DNA of 58,037 bases, taken from IMG/VR virus record IMGVR_UViG_3300025941_000030, positions 1 through 58,037 of that record, one strand, 5' to 3'. The first letter of the stretch is position 1; each line of letters begins with the position of its first letter. Under the pieces are notes generated by a model. It saw nothing but the letters and a program-made list of their open reading frames with translations. It did not search any database and was not told the origin of the DNA. This DNA comes from a virus. Below are positions 13,325 to 47,316 of this stretch, piece after piece. The translations under genes and the position numbers were made by a program.

Positions 13325-13635
13325 CAATGACCCCTCAGTGGGTGCAAGTCAGCGGGCTTCACGCCCAGCACATGCCCGATCAACAGCCCACTCGGACTGA
13401 ACCACGCCATGTCAATCGTCCCGTCCGGTCGAAACGCGTTCGGCATGAACCAGTCGCCCTCGTGCGTGTGCGGGATCGCGCCCGCCCGCAGCCCCCACAT
13501 GGTACCGGGCGAGAACTTGGCGAACAGTTCTTGGATGCTGTCCGGTAGCCCGGCAAACCACCCAGCCATCTCCAAGTAATCACCGACCGTCAACTCAAGT
13601 ACGCCGTCGTCAATCGTGTCTAGGCTGACATCCAT
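13324..13635 (-). CDS. Hypothetical protein between terminase and portal (103 aa)
   Basis: ATG 13635 lies inside the end of the terminase gene (16-base overlap) and the stop overlaps the portal start. The acidic N-terminus (MDVSLDTIDDGVLELTVGDY) is followed by an aromatic-rich segment (GDWFMPNAFRPDGTIDMAWF). Similar short genes occur between terminase and portal in other podoviruses. No known domain; a packaging or portal accessory role is inferred from position only. Confidence 0.6.
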   Translation of the reverse strand: MDVSLDTIDDGVLELTVGDYLEMAGWFAGLPDSIQELFAKFSPGTMWGLRAGAIPHTHEGDWFMPNAFRPDGTIDMAWFSPSGLLIGHVLGVKPADLHPLRGH

Positions 13636-16247
13636 GAAGCACCTGGGGGTCTGGGGCGCGGCGGCGCGCTCTCGCGCACGGGCGCCGGGAACACTACACG
13701 CATGGCCGGGTCGCACATTCTACTCATCGCGTCGATCACGTCGTCGTACTTGCACGCAGGATACTTTTGCCACTCCTCGTTTACAAACCGTTTGATTGCC
13801 TCGACCACCTCAGCGTCACGCCCGCGCGTCTCGGGGTTGGGTAGCCAAATGCGGCCCGCGTTGGCGATGGGCATCAGCGTACGGATGCGGTCGGGCTTGG
13901 ACAGGTTGTGCCACTCCCCACTCCGGCCCAGCTCGATTATCTGGAACCGATAATTCTCCCGCTCCATTCGGTCCTTCAATGTAACAACGTCCGCTTGGAG
14001 ACCGTACTCCTCGTAGCCCACAGAAATTGGCCTCCACTTTCGGTGCATACGGAAGATATGATCAGCTCGTTCGGTGGGATCAAGGCGTGCGCGGACACAG
14101 TCGAGCCAATAGTAATTTCCGTCTCCAGCGGTTCCGAACACGAGTATGACCGTGAAGTCGGCTTTCTTGGTCTTACGCAGCGCCGGGTCACAGACCATGT
14201 AGACATTGAGGTCGCGCGCATTGGTCTCCTCGTAGTAGTTGAGGGGCGTGTTGGCGAACCAGTAGCCGCCAGCGATGGTTGGTTCTTGTTGGTAGCTAGC
14301 CTCCCACACTGACAGGTCGGCGTTCTTGATCGGCTCCAGCTCGGCTACCGGCCACCGCTCGGGCCAGAGCGGATCGCCTTCATGGCGCCAGCCTTCTTCC
14401 TCGGTAGCAATCGCGCGTAGGCGGATCACATCCCACAGCCCGCGCTTGTCACTCGGCTTGCTCTGCCCATCTGTGTACGGCCTATTCTGCTGCACGTCCC
14501 ACCCACCATCCTCACTCACCCGCCACCCGATCAAGTCATCCGGCGTCCACCGCGTACTGGCAATGATGATCGCCGCACTCGGTTCGAGACGCACCCGCAC
14601 CACCCCGTTGTACATCTCCCGCTTCTGCGACATGATCGTGTCGCTGGCCATTTCCTGCCGTGACTTGTGCGGATCGTCTATACAGTTGTGGACGAAGATT
14701 CCGTCAGCGATGAAGCAATGATCTTCTGCCACTTGGATGTCATAGACTCGCGCGAAGCCGCATTCTTCGACTTGTGAAATTTCATGTGACACGGTTGACA
14801 GAGGACCGCAATGTTCTCGATCGTATCGTTCCTCTTGTTCTCGTCCATGTGATGCCCGATCAAGTTGTGCGTTGTACTGCACTCGAAGCAGGCGCGGTAT
14901 CGGTCCCGTAGCTGCGGCGATAGCCGCTTCTTGAAACGCCGCAGGTAGTACGTCAGGTATTTGCCAGTACGGTAATTGGGATTGTTCCTCCCAGCCATCA
15001 ACGTCGCGTGCGCTTGCTCCTTGCAGACCATCGAACAAAACTGAGTCTTGTAACTCGTTGGCCGAAACTCCCGGTTGCACGTAGCACAAAGGATCGGGCG
15101 CAACGAACGCAGGCCACCCGTTGTCTGCGCCCATTCGGAGTAACACGTTTGATTGCAAAACATGCGCTTCCCCTTGCCTCGGGCGAGTCTCGTACCACAC
15201 TGTTTGCACACCGGGCGCCGGCTCTCGAAGTACACCCGCGTCCATTCCTTGCTGCACGTCGGCGAACAGAACTTGCTCTTGCGCTTGTTGAGACGCTTCT
15301 CTTTTGGCTCGTACGCCTTGTGGCATTGTTTGCACACCATATACGCGGTCCCCTTTTCGCAGAGTACCAGCTTCTCTCCAGCCGGTCGGGGTTAGTATAT
15401 GATGATCGTGAGTCACTGTCAATGAGTGCGTACCATAACCAATACGGATCACCCGGCGCACGCCGTTGTGCATCACGCGTTCAACACGTTGCCACGCCCA
15501 CGGAGTCGCAACTTCGTCTGCAACCGTAACGTGTTCGATTGGTACTTGGCCGCGTCGCGTCGTTACGAGAGAACCTTGCGCGACGCAGAGCAAATGTGCG
15601 CCTCGCCCATTCACACCGGTATCAAAACCGCCGGCATAAAACTTACCGCCGCTCACCGTCTGAAACTCGTCCTGCGCCCGGCTGAACTTGGTCAAGGACG
15701 CTGACGGGAACAACGCTTGGTACAGGTCACTTTTCATTATCTCACGGATCGTTCGACCCGATGTACGAGATAAGGCTTTACCGTAGCCAAGCAGAATGAC
15801 TGAGTGTTCTGGGTTGTGCCCAAAGTAGAACGGCAGAAAGGTCTCGACACAAAATTGAGTTTTGCTATGCCGAAACGGCATCGAAATTATCTGCCGCCGA
15901 CAAGCTGGATTACAAAGAGCAATGCCTTCCAGCCTCGGCGCAAGGATGGCTTGTTGGAAATGCGTGTACCCCCAATCAGGGTGCACGGCCAACGCAAACG
16001 CCCCGTAGTTCGTGCGCAGATCGTCCAGCCCAACATCGTCCAGCGCCGGCCCCCGTTCGACCAGTTTCTTGCCGTTCAGGAACGACCGGTCAGGCACATC
16101 GATACCAGCCTTGGCCAAGTGCTGCCGGATCAACTGGCCGCTCGTGTTGTACCACACGGCGATCTTTTTCACCGAACCGGACACCTTGTAGCACTCGGCT
16201 ATGCGCTGCGTGTCCAACTCATCGAACGGTGCGCGAGATTTTTTCAT
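13620..16247 (-). CDS. terL: Terminase large subunit precursor interrupted by an intein (875 aa)
   Basis: The exteins form a normal terminase of 574 residues. The N-terminal helix-turn-helix-like region is followed by a Walker A-like loop MPFRHSKT at 123-130. Walker B (AHLL-CIDDP) is split by the intein. Then come an IIASTRWTPDD motor motif and a C-terminal RNase H-like nuclease (YMVCDPALRKTKKADFTVIL, DAVIDAMSRM-type end KYDDVIDAM). The intein is residues 221-521: it starts at Cys221 and ends His520-Asn521, followed by Cys522 as the first residue of the C-extein. Removal restores GAHLLCIDDPHKSR, a clean Walker B. The enzyme cuts concatemeric DNA and pumps it through the portal, so splicing should be required for function. 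Confidence 0.9.
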   Translation of the reverse strand: MKKSRAPFDELDTQRIAECYKVSGSVKKIAVWYNTSGQLIRQHLAKAGIDVPDRSFLNGKKLVERGPALDDVGLDDLRTNYGAFALAVHPDWGYTHFQQAILAPRLEGIALCNPACRRQIISMPFRHSKTQFCVETFLPFYFGHNPEHSVILLGYGKALSRTSGRTIREIMKSDLYQALFPSASLTKFSRAQDEFQTVSGGKFYAGGFDTGVNGRGAHLLCVAQGSLVTTRRGQVPIEHVTVADEVATPWAWQRVERVMHNGVRRVIRIGYGTHSLTVTHDHHILTPTGWREAGTLRKGDRVYGVQTMPQGVRAKREASQQAQEQVLFADVQQGMDAGVLREPAPGVQTVWYETRPRQGEAHVLQSNVLLRMGADNGWPAFVAPDPLCYVQPGVSANELQDSVLFDGLQGASARDVDGWEEQSQLPYWQIPDVLPAAFQEAAIAAATGPIPRLLRVQYNAQLDRASHGREQEERYDREHCGPLSTVSHEISQVEECGFARVYDIQVAEDHCFIADGIFVHNCIDDPHKSRQEMASDTIMSQKREMYNGVVRVRLEPSAAIIIASTRWTPDDLIGWRVSEDGGWDVQQNRPYTDGQSKPSDKRGLWDVIRLRAIATEEEGWRHEGDPLWPERWPVAELEPIKNADLSVWEASYQQEPTIAGGYWFANTPLNYYEETNARDLNVYMVCDPALRKTKKADFTVILVFGTAGDGNYYWLDCVRARLDPTERADHIFRMHRKWRPISVGYEEYGLQADVVTLKDRMERENYRFQIIELGRSGEWHNLSKPDRIRTLMPIANAGRIWLPNPETRGRDAEVVEAIKRFVNEEWQKYPACKYDDVIDAMSRMCDPAMRVVFPAPVRESAPPRPRPPGASWMSA
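14678..15340 (-). CDS. HNH endonuclease nested out of frame in the intein (220 aa)
   Basis: Same strand as the terminase but shifted by one base. It has three treble-clef-like zinc modules: CKQC...CSPTC, CKQC...CNQTC and CATC...CSMVC. They are followed by an HNH nuclease core with CFEC, IGHHMDENKRNDTIENI, then LCQPCHMKFHK. Spacing of the His-His, Asn and Cys/His residues is canonical. AAGGGG stands 9 bases before ATG 15340, so it can be translated on its own. The stop lies 7 bases past the intein's last codon. It is probably the homing enzyme of this intein. Both frames stay open for 660 bases. Confidence 0.85.
   Translation of the reverse strand: MVCKQCHKAYEPKEKRLNKRKSKFCSPTCSKEWTRVYFESRRPVCKQCGTRLARGKGKRMFCNQTCYSEWAQTTGGLRSLRPILCATCNREFRPTSYKTQFCSMVCKEQAHATLMAGRNNPNYRTGKYLTYYLRRFKKRLSPQLRDRYRACFECSTTHNLIGHHMDENKRNDTIENIAVLCQPCHMKFHKSKNAASRESMTSKWQKIIASSLTESSSTTV
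14685..15587 (-). mobile_element. Intein within the terminase Walker B motif (301 aa)
   Basis: Splicing blocks are recognisable. Block A is CVAQGSLVTTRRGQVPIEHV at the N-terminus (Cys1). Block B is GTHSLTVTHDHHILTPTGW at intein residues 52-70, with the Thr and His of the TxxH motif. Blocks F and G are RVYDIQVAEDHCFIADGIF followed by VHN, then Cys+1. The stretch between about intein residues 83 and 265 shows no endonuclease motif in this frame. Instead the DNA there encodes a zinc-finger/HNH protein in another frame (15340-14678). Intein sites in the ATPase core of terminases are common targets. Confidence 0.9.
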
Positions 16248-31970: not shown

Positions 31971-32864
31971 ATGAGCGATAACCGAAACCTGAAAGTCGCC
32001 ATCTGCGGTGTAGGTGGCGTAGGGAGCTGGGCAGCGGAAACGCTGGCCAAGGCAGCGCGCGGACAGGAGGGGTTGATCAGCAAGATTGGCCTCTTTGACC
32101 CAGACGTACTCGAACAGAAAAATCTCGCGCGCATGCCGACCGTGTCACCCGACTGGGTCGGGCATCCGAAAGTGGATCTGATCAGGAGGTTGATCCAGGG
32201 TACCGTGGCGAACGTCGAACGGCGCCAGATCAAGGTCGACGCCAGCAACATCGACATGATCCTCTTCGACTACGACATCGTCATCTGTTGCTCCGACGAT
32301 GTGGAGAACCAACGGCTGGTCAAGCTCTGGTGCGACCGAAACCGCAGCAAAGTCTACCAGCGCGCCGGCTACGACGGCGACAACATCAACGTCTGCCGCG
32401 CCTTGCCAATGACCTTCGATGTGGAGGAGGAAAAGGCGGACGCGGGGTATCACGGGCAGCCGGAAGTGTACCAGGCCATGTTGGCAGGCTGCTTGGCCGT
32501 GTACTCGGTACTCAAGAATACGGTCACGGTAATGGGTGAGGTGAAGAAGATCGGGTGCTTGGATGCCACGCATGTGCCCGAGAGTGTGCGAGAGGCGATC
32601 GTGGCGAGCGTGCCGAGGCAGATCGTGAGCGCCGAGGCGGAGGACTGGGAAGAGATAGCGAGCAATCACGGCTGGCACGACAGCGACAACTGCAACCACG
32701 ACGAATGTTATCCCAGCTTCTCAGAGCAAGTCAGCAACAACCCAGGCAACGCGTACGATACCCTGCGCGGCTACCACGACCGCTCCCACGTCGCGCGCTC
32801 GCGCACGGACGACGACTGCCCGTACTGCCAGCTGGCAACCGTAGCCGCAGCCGAAGACGAGTAA
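31971..32864 (+). CDS. E1-like ThiF-family adenylating enzyme (297 aa)
   Basis: GAAAGGAGGTGA precedes ATG 31971. The N-terminal Rossmann motif VAICGVGGVGSW (GxGGxG at 13-18), LFDPDVLEQKNLARM (41-55), a Lys in GHPKVDLIRRL and ICCSDDVENQRLV (105-117) form the adenylation site of E1/ThiF/MoeB proteins. A candidate catalytic Cys is 196 (KKIGCLDATHVPES). The C-terminal quarter has Cys/His pairs (DNCNHDEC, DDCPYC) that may bind zinc. It should activate the C-terminus of the beta-grasp protein with ATP and hand it to the E2-like protein. Confidence 0.88.
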   Translation: MSDNRNLKVAICGVGGVGSWAAETLAKAARGQEGLISKIGLFDPDVLEQKNLARMPTVSPDWVGHPKVDLIRRLIQGTVANVERRQIKVDASNIDMILFDYDIVICCSDDVENQRLVKLWCDRNRSKVYQRAGYDGDNINVCRALPMTFDVEEEKADAGYHGQPEVYQAMLAGCLAVYSVLKNTVTVMGEVKKIGCLDATHVPESVREAIVASVPRQIVSAEAEDWEEIASNHGWHDSDNCNHDECYPSFSEQVSNNPGNAYDTLRGYHDRSHVARSRTDDDCPYCQLATVAAAEDE

Positions 32865-38664: not shown

Positions 38665-38885
38665 GCATGAGCAAGAAAGACTTCATTGCCTTGGCCGACA
38701 CACTACGCACACTACAACCATCGCCGTTTAGTGGCGACAGTGTTGGAAACGCGTATCAGTTTGATTGCTACGTAAACGCGCTCGCCGACTTCTGCGCCGC
38801 CCAGAACCCGCGCTTCAACCGCGCGCGTTGGCTAGGGTACATCAACGGCACCTGTGGACCAAACGGAGGAACACCCAAAACATGA
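38661..38885 (+). CDS. Small phage protein of a recurrent type (74 aa)
   Basis: MSMSKKDFIALADTLRTLQP followed by FDCYVNALADFCAAQNPRFN is a pattern shared by many short phage proteins of unknown role ('F.alAd.l......lad.c...NprFd..rW..Yi'). The stop overlaps the helicase start. Confidence 0.68.
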   Translation: MSMSKKDFIALADTLRTLQPSPFSGDSVGNAYQFDCYVNALADFCAAQNPRFNRARWLGYINGTCGPNGGTPKT

Positions 38886-40345
38886 CCCCATCCAAATATC
38901 AGCTCGACATCTACGAAGCCGCAGCGCGTGGCGACAAGCCGATCGCGGTCAAGGCAGTAGCAGGAGCGGGCAAGAGCCACGTCATCAAAGAAGTTGTCCG
39001 TGCTGCCTCCGGCCCCCGCCTCATCACCGCCTTCAACAAGCACATCGCCGACCACCTCAAGGGCCAATTCACCGACCGCGACGTCCGCGTCAGTACCATC
39101 CACAGCATGGGCTACGGCGCCCTGGCCGAAGCCTGTTCAACCAAGCTCAAGCTCGACGACGAGAAAGGGTACAAGCTGATCCGAGCGTACCTGAACGACT
39201 ACCCCTCCACCTGGGCCAACGCCGGCTTCGACTCAGCCTACGACTGCGTACCCGCGCTCCGTGAACTGTACGAGTTCGCGCGCCTGAGCCTGGTCAGCCC
39301 GCACGCACAGGACATGTTCATTGAAGCAGCCAGCGCGTACGACCTGACCTGCACGCCGGCCCTGGTTGAAGCGCTGCCCACCCTGCTCAAGCGCAACGCG
39401 AAGCTGGCCGAAGATGATGGACAGATCGATTTCACTGACATGATCCACCTGCCCTGCCGCTGGGACTTACAAGTCACCAAGTACCCGCTCGTGTTCGTGG
39501 ACGAGGTACAGGACTTGAACCCATGCCAGCTCGCGCTTGTGCTCAAGGCGCGGGCGAAGGGTGCAGGTGGGATGTTCGTCGGCGACCCAGCCCAGTCGAT
39601 CATGCAGTTCGCCTACGCCGGCCTTGACTCCTTTAACGAAGCCCGCATCGCAGTCGACGCGCAGGTGCTGCCCCTGTCCATCTGTTACAGGTGCCCGACT
39701 AGCCACATCAAGCTCGCGCAGGAGCTGGTGCCAGAGATTGAGGCGAGGGAGGATGCACCGGAAGGGTCAGTATACGGCGGCACCTCGCGCGCCATGTCCG
39801 CGTTACTCAAGGACCAGCTGTTCGACTCGACCATGATCCTCTGCCGCAACACCGCCCCACTCATCGCCACCTGCCTGTCCCTGATCCGCGCCGGCATCCC
39901 TGCCCATGTGAAGGGCCGCGACATTGGACGCGACCTGGTCACGACTATCCGCGCCGCGAGCAAGGGCAACATCGCCGCACTCGACGATGACCTGACCACC
40001 TGGCAACACGACCAGGAAGAACGGCTACGTGCGACCCAGGCGCCCAAGGGCAAGTACGCCGCATTACAGGACCGTGTCGATGGGGCACTCGCTGCGGCAG
40101 CCGGTGTACGCGCGGCCTCCGTGCCCGACCTGCTCGCCCAGATTCAAACGCTGTTTGCGGACGGGGCGAACGGAGTCACCTTGAGTACAGTGCACCGAGC
40201 AAAGGGGCTGGAGGCTGATCGCGTGTTTATCATCCGACCTGACTTGCTCACGCGCGATACGCAGAGCGAGGCGAATGTGGAGTACGTAGCAAAAACGAGA
40301 AGCCGTTCTATTCTTGGCTTCGTCGAAGACGCCGAAAATCTGTGA
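38882..40345 (+). CDS. SF1 DNA helicase, UvrD/Rep/PcrA-like (487 aa)
   Basis: Walker A AVAGAGKSH (26-33), motif Ia FNKHIADHL, motif Ic TIHSMGY, Walker B VFVDEVQDL (204-212), motif III GDPAQSIMQFAYAG, motif IV-like CRNTAPL, and motif V TVHRAKGLEADRVF near residue 440 are all present in order. It is shorter than UvrD (about 720 aa) because domains 1B and 2B are reduced, as in many phage SF1B enzymes. ATG 38882 overlaps the preceding stop. The protein should unwind DNA 3' to 5' during replication or recombination. It leads the replication block. Confidence 0.88.
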   Translation: MTPSKYQLDIYEAAARGDKPIAVKAVAGAGKSHVIKEVVRAASGPRLITAFNKHIADHLKGQFTDRDVRVSTIHSMGYGALAEACSTKLKLDDEKGYKLIRAYLNDYPSTWANAGFDSAYDCVPALRELYEFARLSLVSPHAQDMFIEAASAYDLTCTPALVEALPTLLKRNAKLAEDDGQIDFTDMIHLPCRWDLQVTKYPLVFVDEVQDLNPCQLALVLKARAKGAGGMFVGDPAQSIMQFAYAGLDSFNEARIAVDAQVLPLSICYRCPTSHIKLAQELVPEIEAREDAPEGSVYGGTSRAMSALLKDQLFDSTMILCRNTAPLIATCLSLIRAGIPAHVKGRDIGRDLVTTIRAASKGNIAALDDDLTTWQHDQEERLRATQAPKGKYAALQDRVDGALAAAAGVRAASVPDLLAQIQTLFADGANGVTLSTVHRAKGLEADRVFIIRPDLLTRDTQSEANVEYVAKTRSRSILGFVEDAENL

Positions 40346-40390: not shown

Positions 40391-40591
40391 ATGACCCGCC
40401 TACGCCTCGACCGCGTCATCCAAATGCGCGTGACCCACAAGCAGCTCACCCACCTGCGCGCCGCCGCCAAATGCGTAGGCTTACCCCTCACCACCTGGCT
40501 CCGTGTCACAGCTACCATGACGGCGTCGGAGGTTCTGTTGAACAAGAAGGACACCCATGAACGGAACGACACCCGACAGGCTCGCACATGA
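40391..40591 (+). CDS. Ribbon-helix-helix-like regulator (66 aa)
   Basis: ATG 40391 (two in-frame residues earlier exist but lie in the promoter). The beta strand LDRVIQMRVTHKQLTHL and the helices AAAKCVGLPLTTWLRVTATM follow the RHH/Arc-MetJ pattern, including the 'A...g.....Wlr' second helix. No Shine-Dalgarno site is seen, and the putative transcript start is nearly at the ATG, so translation may be leaderless. The end overlaps the nuclease gene. Possibly autoregulatory. Confidence 0.58.
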   Translation: MTRLRLDRVIQMRVTHKQLTHLRAAAKCVGLPLTTWLRVTATMTASEVLLNKKDTHERNDTRQART

Positions 40592-41606
40592 TAATGTGCG
40601 CCTGATCCTCGAAACCTACATCGACAAACACAACCCCGAGACCAGCTACCCCTGGTTCACGGACCCGAAGATGGTGGAGGTGGGGGTAGCGGCAGACCTT
40701 TATGACGCGCCGAAGAACGAGTGTTTATGTGGCCACACGCATAAGTCGCACAGAGACGATGTGTTTGGCGAACATAATGAAGGCTCGTGTACTTTTTGCC
40801 AATGTGACGCGTACCAGAACAAGGTCGTCCACGTCGGCGTCCTCGACATCCTCGGCACCTCCCGCTCCACCAACGACCTATGCCCCGTCGACCACAAGAC
40901 TACCGGCCAGCTCAACGCGCGCTTCGTCCACCAGTACGAAATGGACAGCCAGCTGTCTGGTTACATGTGGCAAGCGTCCCAACTCATGCGCAAGCCCTGC
41001 CACGTCGCGTTTATCAACGCGATCGAGCTAGGCGTCATCCCCTCGTCCAACCGCAAGTGCCCTGCCCACGGCGTCGAGTACGCCGAGTGCGGACCCGAGC
41101 ACGTGAAGTTCCAGGTCATCGGCCCGATCGAACGCACTGATCGGCAGATCGAGGAATGGCGTGAGGGCGCGATTGTGCTCGCGCTCAAGTACCGCCGCCT
41201 GCTCACGCACACGCACAAGTCCATTCACAAGGTCCGCATGGAGGGCACGTTCAACGGCGGCTGTGCCTACTGTGAGTTCCGCGAGTGGTGTATTGGAGAC
41301 CGGCAGCCGAAGCAGGTGGAGAAGATGTTCATACAGCGTGTGTGGGCACCGTGGGAGCGCGTGCCGAACGTGGTCAAGAAGCCGGACCCGCGCGTGCTTT
41401 ACGTGGACAACAGCACGCTCAAGGCAGTCGCGTCGTGCAGCACACAGGCGCTCATGCGGTACGGGCTCGGCTGGTCCAGTGCCGAGCAAAGTGGGCCGCT
41501 CAACGCCGGCACCGCCGTGCACGCCGGGCTCGAGCGCTGGTTCAAGGGTGGCACCACATCACAAGCACTCGACGCATTTGACAAAGCATTTGTGGAGGAC
41601 GAATGA
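40557..41606 (+). CDS. PD-(D/E)XK nuclease, RecB/Cas4-like, apparently circularly permuted (349 aa)
   Basis: AAGGAC precedes ATG 40557. The catalytic core is near the N-terminus: Glu41 (MVEVGV), Asp97 (GVLDILG), Asp112-His-Lys114 (PVDHKTT) and Gln132-x3-Tyr136 (QLSGY). A zinc-like insert C56xCGHx4H with C78, C81 and C83 lies between the first two. GGCAYCEFREWC ends the core. Residues 280-349 (VDNSTLKAVASCSTQALMR, LNAGTAVHAGLERWF, His322) look like the segment that normally stands at the very start of RecB-type nucleases. Its natural continuation is the 'rLahdNvrlIl..yi' found at the N-terminus here. Genes for an SF1 helicase and a Sak4-like ATPase flank it. Confidence 0.8.
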   Translation: MNGTTPDRLAHDNVRLILETYIDKHNPETSYPWFTDPKMVEVGVAADLYDAPKNECLCGHTHKSHRDDVFGEHNEGSCTFCQCDAYQNKVVHVGVLDILGTSRSTNDLCPVDHKTTGQLNARFVHQYEMDSQLSGYMWQASQLMRKPCHVAFINAIELGVIPSSNRKCPAHGVEYAECGPEHVKFQVIGPIERTDRQIEEWREGAIVLALKYRRLLTHTHKSIHKVRMEGTFNGGCAYCEFREWCIGDRQPKQVEKMFIQRVWAPWERVPNVVKKPDPRVLYVDNSTLKAVASCSTQALMRYGLGWSSAEQSGPLNAGTAVHAGLERWFKGGTTSQALDAFDKAFVEDE

Positions 41607-42445
41607 AACGCCCCGAGATACACGCAGTAGTCTACGGATTCCCTGGCAGTTACAAAAGTACCTTTGCTTCTACCTTCCCCACCCCCATCTACGTCTGCAA
41701 CTTTGACGGTCGCTCCAAAGCCGGCCCGTTCCTGCGCATGGGTGACAAGGTAGTCAACGGCGAATCGGATAAGCTCGGCGTCCCCTTACAGCGCGTGTAC
41801 GACGGCAAGACCCTCGTCGCCGAGATTCACCACTACCAAGACCCTGACCCCGAGAAGCCCGATGCGTTCGATCTGTTCAGGCAGGAGCAGCAGGAGTTCA
41901 ACCCGTCTAAGTGGGGCACGTGGGTGCTCGACAGTGTGACCGCCGCCGAGCTAGCCGCGCGCCTCGAACAACAGTTCAACATCAACCCCAACGTCCGCGA
42001 CGGCAGGCAATGGTTCGCAGGTGCCACCGACCAGCTCGAACGCCAGCTCGTCCGGCGCGCGACCAGCTACGAGTGCAACGTCGTGGTCATCTGCCACATC
42101 ACCGAGGAGTTTGTGGATGTGCCGGCGAGCAAGGAAGGTCCGGCCAAGCGCGTGGACAAGCGCGTGGAGTTCGGTGAGCGCGTGTCGTCAGATGGGGAGA
42201 CTGTGCGACAGCAACTGGTCCGGTCCATCTCCGCACCAGGGCGCCTGTCCAAACGCCACACCCTGATCAGCCAGTACGGCGAGTGCTACCGCGCGTACAC
42301 GCTGTTCAAGGACGGCAAGCGTAGCTGGTGGTTGCAGACTGAGGCTGATGAGGAATGGATTGCGAACACGCAGATACCGGCCCCTGATCCTTGCCTACCT
42401 GACTACGACAAGTTGTGGGCACGCGCCGACAAGACCACAAGATAA
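41603..42445 (+). CDS. RecA-like AAA ATPase, Sak4-type (280 aa)
   Basis: ATG 41603 overlaps the nuclease stop. Walker A GFPGSYKST (12-20), Walker B-like TWVLDSVTAAEL and a conserved VVVICHITEEF strand that corresponds to the sensor region of RecA cores. Such short RecA relatives (Sak4 family) in phages act with ssDNA-binding proteins in strand annealing and recombination. A ssDNA-binding-like protein is encoded 820 bases downstream. Confidence 0.78.
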   Translation: MKRPEIHAVVYGFPGSYKSTFASTFPTPIYVCNFDGRSKAGPFLRMGDKVVNGESDKLGVPLQRVYDGKTLVAEIHHYQDPDPEKPDAFDLFRQEQQEFNPSKWGTWVLDSVTAAELAARLEQQFNINPNVRDGRQWFAGATDQLERQLVRRATSYECNVVVICHITEEFVDVPASKEGPAKRVDKRVEFGERVSSDGETVRQQLVRSISAPGRLSKRHTLISQYGECYRAYTLFKDGKRSWWLQTEADEEWIANTQIPAPDPCLPDYDKLWARADKTTR

Positions 42446-44303: not shown

Positions 44304-45383
44304 ATGACCCGCCGCGTGCCCTCCTACGGGCCACTTGATGCGAAGATCGTGATTATCGGCGAAGCGCCGGGGCGCCAGGAATGCCTCGTCGGGCGCCCAT
44401 TCATCGGCCCGTCCGGTCATCTGCTCGACAAGTGGCTGGACGGGGCCGGCCTACGGCGGCGGGACATCCGCACGATGAACGTCTTCGAGTACATGGCTCC
44501 AGGCTCGAACATAACCAAGGCCGACAAAGCCGAGGTCGAAGTATGGGCCGACAGCCTGCACACGCGCTTGCGTGAATTACAAGACCCGATCGTCCTCGTC
44601 CCTATGGGCAACATCGCCCTGCGCGCGGTGATGCGTAAGCCGTTGTGGAGTAACAAGTCACCTAAGATTGGGGACTGGCGTGGGTCGATACTGCGCTACG
44701 ACTTCAACACCATACTGCCCGACCCTGAACGCTGGTGTAAGGTCATCCCGACCTACCACCCTGCTGCCAGCTTCCGTGACAGCTCGCTTGGTAAACTGTG
44801 CCGAGCAGACTGGCACCGGATCGCGGGCGATAGCCAGTTCCGTGCGAGGCGATTACCGAAGTACATCCACCTTGTACCGCCTATCCACGACGACGACGTG
44901 ACCCGATACATTAACGAAGCATTAGACCCGTGTACGGTCATGGCGATCGACATTGAGACTAACCCATCCACGCGTGAGATACTGTGTGTGGGCTTCAGCT
45001 TTGACCCAGGCGAATCGCTCACGCTTCCGTGGCCCCAGTACCGTAAGATCATCCGTGTCCTATGTGAGTCGCCGTGTGTAAAGGTCGGCCAGAACTTCCT
45101 CTACGATCGCTACTGGCTACTCGTGCTCGGGGACATCGAAGTGCGTGGGGAGATACACGATCTGCTGTCCATGCACCATACGATCGACTCGACTTTGCCC
45201 CACGATCTAGCCACGATGGCAAGCCTCGACACGCGGCAGCCGTTTTGGAAACGTTCGCACAAGGATGAAGATTCTGACACTGCTGACAAGGAACCGTTTG
45301 AACGGTTGTGCATCTATAATGGGGTGGACTGTTGCGTGTCGAGGCAGCTGTTCGACGTGTATATGGAAAGGCTGCGAGCATGA
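44304..45383 (+). CDS. Uracil-DNA glycosylase / 3'-5' exonuclease fusion (359 aa)
   Basis: Residues 1-180 are a family 4/5-like UDG: GEAPGRQE (19-26), RPFIGPSGHLLDKWL, and TYHPAASFRD (His152) in the catalytic loop. Residues 205-359 are a DnaQ-like exonuclease: AIDIETN (Asp216, Glu218), GQNFLYD (Asp268), Asp286 and IYNGVD (Tyr338, Asp342), a DEDDy set. The family 4 Fe-S cysteines are not obvious, so the cluster may be lost. The exonuclease domain is missing from the polymerase gene that follows after one short gene, so together they would make a split polymerase A. The UDG could remove uracil near the fork. Confidence 0.82.
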   Translation: MTRRVPSYGPLDAKIVIIGEAPGRQECLVGRPFIGPSGHLLDKWLDGAGLRRRDIRTMNVFEYMAPGSNITKADKAEVEVWADSLHTRLRELQDPIVLVPMGNIALRAVMRKPLWSNKSPKIGDWRGSILRYDFNTILPDPERWCKVIPTYHPAASFRDSSLGKLCRADWHRIAGDSQFRARRLPKYIHLVPPIHDDDVTRYINEALDPCTVMAIDIETNPSTREILCVGFSFDPGESLTLPWPQYRKIIRVLCESPCVKVGQNFLYDRYWLLVLGDIEVRGEIHDLLSMHHTIDSTLPHDLATMASLDTRQPFWKRSHKDEDSDTADKEPFERLCIYNGVDCCVSRQLFDVYMERLRA

Positions 45384-45703
45384 TCCCCAACGACCAGTGG
45401 GGCCGTGAGCTTTGGCTCGCTGTCGCCATGCGTGCGCTCGATATGAAAGGCGACGAGTTGCAGCAGATATACATCGCAGACTGCCAACAAGCGCGTGATG
45501 GGCACTTTGCTAACGCGCGTGAGTACAAAGAGTTGTACGCGAACCTATGCGCCGAGCACGAGAGCTTCAAGGCGTACTATGCAGGCCATAAAGACCTTGT
45601 CGAAGCGTGCGACTGTTTGCATAGATGGCGTAGCGAATTGCTCAACAGCATAGAGAAGATCACCGACGAACTTTGGAAGTTGAAGCAGGACGCAGACGGA
45701 TGA
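45380..45703 (+). CDS. Hypothetical protein between exonuclease and polymerase (107 aa)
   Basis: ATGA overlaps at both ends tie it to the exonuclease and polymerase genes. Helical throughout (LWLAVAMRALDMKGDELQQI, LHRWRSELLNSIEKITDEL). It may bridge the two enzyme parts, but that is only inferred from the arrangement; no family recognised. Confidence 0.6.
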   Translation: MIPNDQWGRELWLAVAMRALDMKGDELQQIYIADCQQARDGHFANAREYKELYANLCAEHESFKAYYAGHKDLVEACDCLHRWRSELLNSIEKITDELWKLKQDADG

Positions 45704-47316
45704 GCAAGCTCGATCTGTATCTTAACCATTACGCTGCCCTCTCCGATCCTATGCTCGCCATGATGGATCACGGCATCCGTGTAGACCGCGCCAAGGCAGC
45801 AGAGAAACTTGCTGCTCTATCCGTCCGTTGCCGGGCTATCCAAGCCGAGCTAGCCGAACTGATCGGCGCGAACGATTGCGTGTGTGGACACAAGCGTGAG
45901 CAGCATGAGCAACTAGTCACCCCGTTTCTAAAGAAGGACGGGACAGTAGCGAAGCGGAAACCGAAGGTTACATGGCCGTGCGGTGAGAGCCATGTCAAAT
46001 GTATGTACGGGCGCATGTGCGTGGACTTCACCCCTCGCGTCCGTGCCCTGACCGGCTCAACCGACCTCTCCTCACAACGCATCGTTGACTACTGCTACAA
46101 CCACCTCGGCTTGCCTGCCCAGCGCCAGCGCGGCGAGGAATCCCTAACTGGCAACGAGGTCGCCCTGCGCAAGCTGCTGCTCAAGGCCCAGCACCAGGCA
46201 GAACACCCCATGCGCCGCCCCACGGAGAAGACTGCGCTGTGGAAGCGCGAGCCTGAGCTGGCCGTGCGTGTGCTCACACTGATCCTCGAACACCGTGAGA
46301 AGGCGAAGCTGGCCACGTACCTGGACCCGAGCAAAGTGGACCGCGATGGGCGCATGCGGTGTATGTATAAGGTCACGACTGAAAATGGCCGGCTCGCGTC
46401 CAAGTCCAACCCATTCGGTACCGGGATGAACTTGCAGAACATTCCGCGCGGGGATATGCGGGAGATATTTGTACCGGACGAGGGGTGCGTTTTTCTGGAG
46501 TTGGACTTCAGTGCTATCGAGGACCGCATCGTCAAGGTGCTCACCCAAGACCCCGAACTAATCCGTGAAGCACGCTTGCGCCCCGATATCTTTGACACCC
46601 ACGCCGTCGCAGCCAAACGAGCGTTTGCCCAGCTCCTCAACGTCCACCCTGACAACGTGGACGTAAAGGTCGAAGTCACGCCCGGCAACACGCGCAGGCA
46701 GATATTCAAACCCTTCAACCACGGCGGGAACTACGGTGCCTCGCCCGTGCGCGTGCAAGAGATGATGCTCAAGGACGGCATCCTGCTCCCGCTCGCACTG
46801 TGTACCAAGCTGCTCGACGCCGCTATCACTGCGCCCAAGCGCGCGTACCAACGCGAGACGCGCAAGCGTATCATGCGCGACCGGAAGCTGACTAACAGCT
46901 GGGGCCGGGAGTTGTCGTTTGAAGGGGAGCGACTGGACGACGCCACCTACCGGCGTGGCTACGCCTTCCGTGCAGCGAGTGAGAACGCGGATAACCTGAA
47001 CCAGCTCGGCCTGGTACCCGCGTATAAGTACATAATCAAACACCGTCTCAAAACGCGCATCAACTGCCAGGTCCACGACAGTTTACTGTTGTCTTGCCCG
47101 CCCGACGAAGTGTATGATGTCGCGCGGTTCGTGATCAAGAGCATGGAGACCCCGCGTGTGTATGAAGGTGTGGAGCTGGCCGTGCCCGTTGAGTTGAAAA
47201 TGGGCACGAGCTGGAAGTGTGAACGTGAGTGGAAGACCCTGCCCAGCCGCGCAGAGTTTGAGCGGGCCGCGTATGACCTCCTGAAAGGAAAACCCAATGC
47301 CGAGCGAGCTGCCTGA
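45700..47316 (+). CDS. polA: DNA polymerase A without exonuclease domain (538 aa)
   Basis: Polymerase motifs are present in order: TENGRLASKSNP...NLQNIPRG (227-251), motif A LELDFSAIEDR (Asp269), motif B RQIFKPFNHGGNYGAS (333-348) and motif C QVHDSLLL (His459, Asp460). The N-terminus (1-110) holds no exonuclease but a Cys/His cluster (Cys60-x-CysGly-His64-x4-His69, Cys94, Cys101, Cys107), akin to the insert in the RecB-like nuclease. Proofreading is supplied by the UDG/exonuclease gene upstream. Length fits polymerase-only family A forms. It should replicate the phage DNA. Confidence 0.9.
   Translation: MSKLDLYLNHYAALSDPMLAMMDHGIRVDRAKAAEKLAALSVRCRAIQAELAELIGANDCVCGHKREQHEQLVTPFLKKDGTVAKRKPKVTWPCGESHVKCMYGRMCVDFTPRVRALTGSTDLSSQRIVDYCYNHLGLPAQRQRGEESLTGNEVALRKLLLKAQHQAEHPMRRPTEKTALWKREPELAVRVLTLILEHREKAKLATYLDPSKVDRDGRMRCMYKVTTENGRLASKSNPFGTGMNLQNIPRGDMREIFVPDEGCVFLELDFSAIEDRIVKVLTQDPELIREARLRPDIFDTHAVAAKRAFAQLLNVHPDNVDVKVEVTPGNTRRQIFKPFNHGGNYGASPVRVQEMMLKDGILLPLALCTKLLDAAITAPKRAYQRETRKRIMRDRKLTNSWGRELSFEGERLDDATYRRGYAFRAASENADNLNQLGLVPAYKYIIKHRLKTRINCQVHDSLLLSCPPDEVYDVARFVIKSMETPRVYEGVELAVPVELKMGTSWKCEREWKTLPSRAEFERAAYDLLKGKPNAERAA

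Follow-up and report, generated by a model that had tools for sequence, protein, structure and literature searches.

The nuclease gene of a tailed phage described here very probably (roughly 0.92 by our own estimate) encodes a phage Cas4/AddB-like exonuclease that has undergone natural circular permutation. The source is the IMG/VR record IMGVR_UViG_3300025941_000030, positions 1 to 58,037 of which were analysed (this whole stretch of 58,037 nucleotides is referred to as the window), and terminase and capsid genes are present in this tailed-phage record. The gene, at 40557..41606 on the plus strand, encodes a 349-aa PD-(D/E)XK nuclease termed P0001, and its assignment draws on the ORF, sequence profiles and a predicted structure. 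A first-pass annotation of this DNA had proposed a natural permutant of a PD-(D/E)XK enzyme, and the ORF, sequence and residue numbers that it gave are all correct. It placed the Glu41-Asp97-D112xK114-Q132xxxY136 core first and the canonical N-terminal segment with His322 last, and these parts appear as two swapped blocks in the profile comparison, which supports the proposal.

The family HMM was built from 17 canonical-order relatives, with the window sequence left out. Its positions 83-310 of 319 match residues 6-269 of P0001 (238 bits, iE 2.9e-72) and its positions 6-72 match residues 279-345 (65.6 bits, iE 1.2e-19), compared with a best domain score of 3.2 bits in 500 shuffled sequences. 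The first block, located at 40572..41363 on the plus strand, is the ancestral C-terminal part and contains E41, D97, D112xK114, Q132xxxY136 and the Cys triad C236/C239/C245, while the second, located at 41391..41591 on the same strand, is the ancestral N-terminal part with C294 and the His322 motif. The two blocks are complementary, with neither overlap nor missing segment, and the rotated protein gives a single match (model 6-309, 317 bits). The Pfam profile PDDEXK_1 (PF12705) scores 46.8 bits on P0001, above its gathering threshold of 22, in two out-of-order stretches, the better of which aligns residues 93-245 with profile positions 125-246. When P0001 is rotated to begin with residue 275, the match becomes one colinear stretch of residues 12-320 against positions 5-246 of 247 (52.4 bits). 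PHROG 1218 (phage exonuclease) shows a similar match pattern with the order swapped; the canonical order of the phrog_1218 subgroup is the N-terminal segment first and then the core, and P0001, having the reverse, is a permuted member. The alignment with two tandem copies of a canonical homologue, suggested earlier as a check, agrees as well: two copies outscore one for all 17 relatives, for example 518 versus 410 for the relative L036, where shuffled tandem sequences reach at most 59. Both parts are homologous to one protein, swapped, complete and contained in one ORF, as in a circular permutant.

The old C-terminus and the old N-terminus meet at residues 270-278 (41364..41390, plus strand), as judged by comparison with the relatives, whose C-terminal tails stop at or beyond the PW motif preceding this junction. 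An imperfect 21-nt direct repeat with a spacing of 33 nt spans it (41357..41410, plus strand; RVPNVVK / RVLYVDN), which may be due to chance. The breakpoint of the permutation is an indel-rich loop, with differences of at least a dozen residues among the relatives. The present ends of P0001 were expected to be neighbours in the ordinary order, and the relatives do run from the equivalent of KAFVEDE into that of DRLAHDN via a loop of variable length. In L036 the corresponding two segments are only 12 nt apart, so that the parts of the window nuclease close into a circle without loss. The composition of the two parts is alike (GC3 0.80 vs 0.77), and GC and GC3 give no hint of foreign origin.

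It had also been considered that residues 280-349 might be an unrelated C-terminal domain, found in homologues of the same order, or that a second nuclease, truncated by a frameshift, begins there. Nothing in favour of either was found: there is no such homologue, the segment 279-345 scores its 65.6 bits against the N-terminus of its own family, the record has one nuclease copy, and the stop codon overlaps an ATPase gene that is intact and complete. The chance that this explanation holds is practically negligible.

The catalytic set of P0001 is complete (H322, E41, D97, D112, K114, Q132 and Y136). Across the 17 relatives H322, E41, D97, K114 and four Cys are invariant, the position of D112 is occupied by D or E, and Q132 and Y136 are nearly invariant, varying in one or two of the 17. 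The Cas4-type cysteines are C294 together with C236, C239 and C245, and four conserved Cys occur in all Cas4 members (PMC5704561). In the canonical L036 these Fe-S-type cysteines are at opposite chain ends (C21 vs C278, C281 and C287), whereas in P0001 the same four lie within 59 residues (C236-C294). To judge from the sequences, an Fe-S cluster with Cys from both ends probably linked the old termini even before the rotation; with the old ends tied by one putative cluster, their joining by a short linker would be structurally easy and the rotation would be tolerated. In addition, a lineage-specific C168-H171-C178-H182 motif (41058..41102, plus strand), invariant in 17 of 17 relatives and itself the motif by which they were retrieved, may be a second metal site peculiar to this nuclease lineage. 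Residues 54-87 (40716..40817, plus strand) form an insert of the pattern CxCGHxH...CxxCxC, a putative zinc knuckle by comparison with the relatives, only one of which (L043) has a similar, shorter one in its nuclease. A stretch resembling this insert, CVCGHKREQH, is found in the DNA polymerase, near the start of 45673-47316.

Then, could the gene be a functionless remnant, the chance fusion of two truncated nuclease copies left by a duplication? The two halves do match the same family, and duplication followed by trimming is the usual route to circular permutants, which would suit such an origin. However, the halves fit each other with neither overlap nor missing segment, all catalytic and Fe-S-type residues are intact, and translation signals are present at both start and stop. 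A Shine-Dalgarno-like AAGAAGGA (40544..40551, plus strand) lies upstream of the new nuclease start codon; at the other end the moved segment contains GGAGG (41594..41598, plus strand), positioned as the Shine-Dalgarno of the ATPase gene, and the nuclease stop and the ATPase start share an ATGA overlap (41603..41606, plus strand). The predicted fold also appears whole, and a chance-fused remnant is considered extremely unlikely.

For P0001 as a permutant, AlphaFold2 gave a model with pLDDT 85.7 and pTM 0.83, from an input in which the relatives were entered as separate N and C fragments, with sequences unaltered and no covariation between the halves; the remaining four models scored lower, with pLDDT of 73-77. 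The corresponding values for the canonical L036 were 92.7 and 0.88. The P0001 helices 285-293, 295-303, 312-329 and 334-348 are equivalent to H12-20, 22-30, 36-56 and 61-79 of L036, and the other L036 helices and strands recur in the P0001 model in rotated order. How residues 280-349 pack was assessed by pTM, pLDDT and this secondary-structure order rather than by superposition, and on that basis P0001 most likely folds like its canonical relatives.

Among solved structures, the nuclease domains of AdnA and AddB, Cas4 and ACE1 have the same core fold as the P0001 model and are the best VIA matches, but their N-terminal segment is without a sequential match in P0001, because P0001 carries this segment at the other end. 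For example, VIA-align of L036 with AdnA covers 789-1039 (Z 17.2, 236 residues), whereas that of P0001 covers 856-1039 only (Z 9.4, 168 residues), with the moved piece left out. For ACE1 (9iac_B), residues 3-290 of L036 correspond to 7-272 of the chain, and residues 3-247 of P0001 to 94-271. In these comparisons of predicted models, the sequential aligner drops exactly the moved segment of P0001.

The relatives were collected from viral contigs. L011 was reached through a two-sequence alignment that included the phage ctKR88 nuclease, and L029 through an ATPase alignment; the motif C-x2-H-x3-Y-x-E-C-G-x2-H, common to these two and the window, was found in 20 viral contigs, 19 of which are clear relatives, with 17 distinct nucleases among them. 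These nucleases of uncultivated phages (e.g., L036, 41% identity) share residues, the invariant C-H-C-H motif and neighbours with P0001. However, their order is canonical in 17 of 17, the equivalent of residues 280-345 preceding that of 2-270, and among the records searched the permuted nuclease was seen in one only, that of the window. The closest families are the phage Cas4-like/RecB-like exonucleases (PF12705, phrog_1218; e.g., the actinophage 'Cas4 family exonuclease'; pfam12705 group in PMC5704561), which have in common with P0001 the catalytic motifs, the four Cys and the order helicase-nuclease-RecA-like ATPase, and from which P0001 differs by the rotated motif order and the putative zinc-knuckle insert.

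Single-protein pattern searches of viral contigs yielded no relative, and distant canonical nucleases, when aligned, diverged too far to serve as a search query. None of the 30 matches from a scan of genome contigs was detectably similar to the nuclease or the ATPase at E 1e-3, no relative was found on plasmids, and a PDB sequence search gave nothing relevant. Cultured and deposited phages provided distant canonical nucleases only, and nothing related to the permuted L049 ATPase described below. A search of openly accessible papers found no description of this permutation; a 2012 superfamily survey may contain such permutants.

The nuclease belongs to a module of a UvrD-like helicase, the nuclease, a Sak4-like AAA_24 ATPase, a putative SSB, a UDG-exonuclease, a family A polymerase and a primase-like protein. 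In the window the helicase gene (38882..40345, plus strand) lies upstream of the nuclease, and the ATPase gene (41603..42445, plus strand) encodes a protein in canonical order; the order helicase-nuclease-ATPase is the same in actinophages such as Zooman and Cece. The ORF at 44304-45383, a fusion of uracil-DNA glycosylase with a 3'-5' exonuclease domain of weak score, is separate from the polymerase ORF, while in L029 the matches of these two ORFs are covered by a single one of 823 aa. Elsewhere in the window, residues ~221-523 of the large terminase (13620-16247, minus strand, 875 aa) are an intein of some 300 aa, with Intein_splicing and intein_Cterm matches, and a ThiF-family protein is encoded at 31971-32864.

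The ATPase is also permuted, in five of 15 relatives (L011:4238-5050; L029:3905-4765; L049:8740-9573; L041:1065-1913, minus strand; and L042:5085-5891, minus strand), and is canonical in the window and ten others. All five have a canonical nuclease. In the permuted ATPases the Walker A segment is near the C-terminus, behind the part normally downstream of it. For example, Pfam AAA_24 matches the L049 protein in two stretches, the better one aligning residues 54-186 with profile positions 61-193, and in L011 the old C-terminus is directly joined to the old start Met (...KGER-MPISTLLYGDFGTGK). Circularly permuted GTPases (YjeQ/YlqF) are known, whose P-loop fold is rotated in a manner analogous to that of the permuted L011, L029 and L049 ATPases; they are an unrelated family, whereas the ATPases here are Sak4-like AAA_24 proteins.

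The permuted ATPases bear on the possibility that the contig swapped the parts of a gene whose true order is ordinary. The window is a single metagenomic contig and all 17 relatives have the canonical nuclease order, as an assembly error would have it. However, such an error would require three breakpoints, the +/-60 nt around which share no word longer than 7 nt, and the region contains only short, imperfect repeats. Moreover, the product is in frame, with a Shine-Dalgarno-like start, the ATGA overlap and uniform composition, and in five contigs it is the next gene that is permuted. As these five originate from several metagenomes and have different base compositions, the ATPase permutation can hardly be explained by faulty assembly, and the nuclease permutation in the window gains credibility accordingly. 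We consider an assembly error very unlikely.

Did the permutation of the ATPase arise more than once? At least two breakpoints are used, before the strand following the GKxxPY region in L011, L041 and L042 and after it in L029 and L049. The ATPase tree needs three state changes, with one origin not rejected (AU p 0.2), and the nuclease tree pairs L011 as sister with L037, which has a canonical ATPase, with strong support (100/97). A screen of ORFs of at least 60 aa from 20 sources (19 loci and the window) found no out-of-order gene beyond the nuclease and the ATPase. It is conceivable, though we hold this only tentatively, that circular permutation is recurrent in the module, with at least one event in the nuclease and probably more than one in the ATPase, at different breakpoints and through a mutational route common to the two genes, such as their repeated tandem duplication.

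As for the circularly permuted nuclease itself, the ancestral gene would have had the ordinary order, with N-terminal helices carrying the Cys and His, the Glu-Asp-DxK-QxxxY core and a three-Cys C-terminus. The rotation would have connected the old C-terminal tail through a short linker to the old N-terminus, and opened new termini in the variable surface loop that links the fourth helix to the following one. Most likely the gene was first duplicated in tandem and then trimmed of the outer halves, in that an internal start would have been used in the first copy and the core of the second copy would have been lost; no remains of the discarded half-copies were detected. Given its family and neighbours, P0001 presumably shares the function of its canonical relatives and most likely acts as a metal-dependent exonuclease that would resect DNA, making single-stranded ends for the adjacent Sak4-like ATPase.

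It is uncommon for natural circular permutants to have close relatives in the unpermuted order, and in this one phage lineage neighbouring genes encode a nuclease and ATPases in permuted form. Such proteins are detected only partly by annotation and by sequential structure searches, as reflected by a Z of 9.4 versus 17.2 for the canonical protein with the same structure. The lineage allows direct tests of how permutants originate and of whether function is retained.
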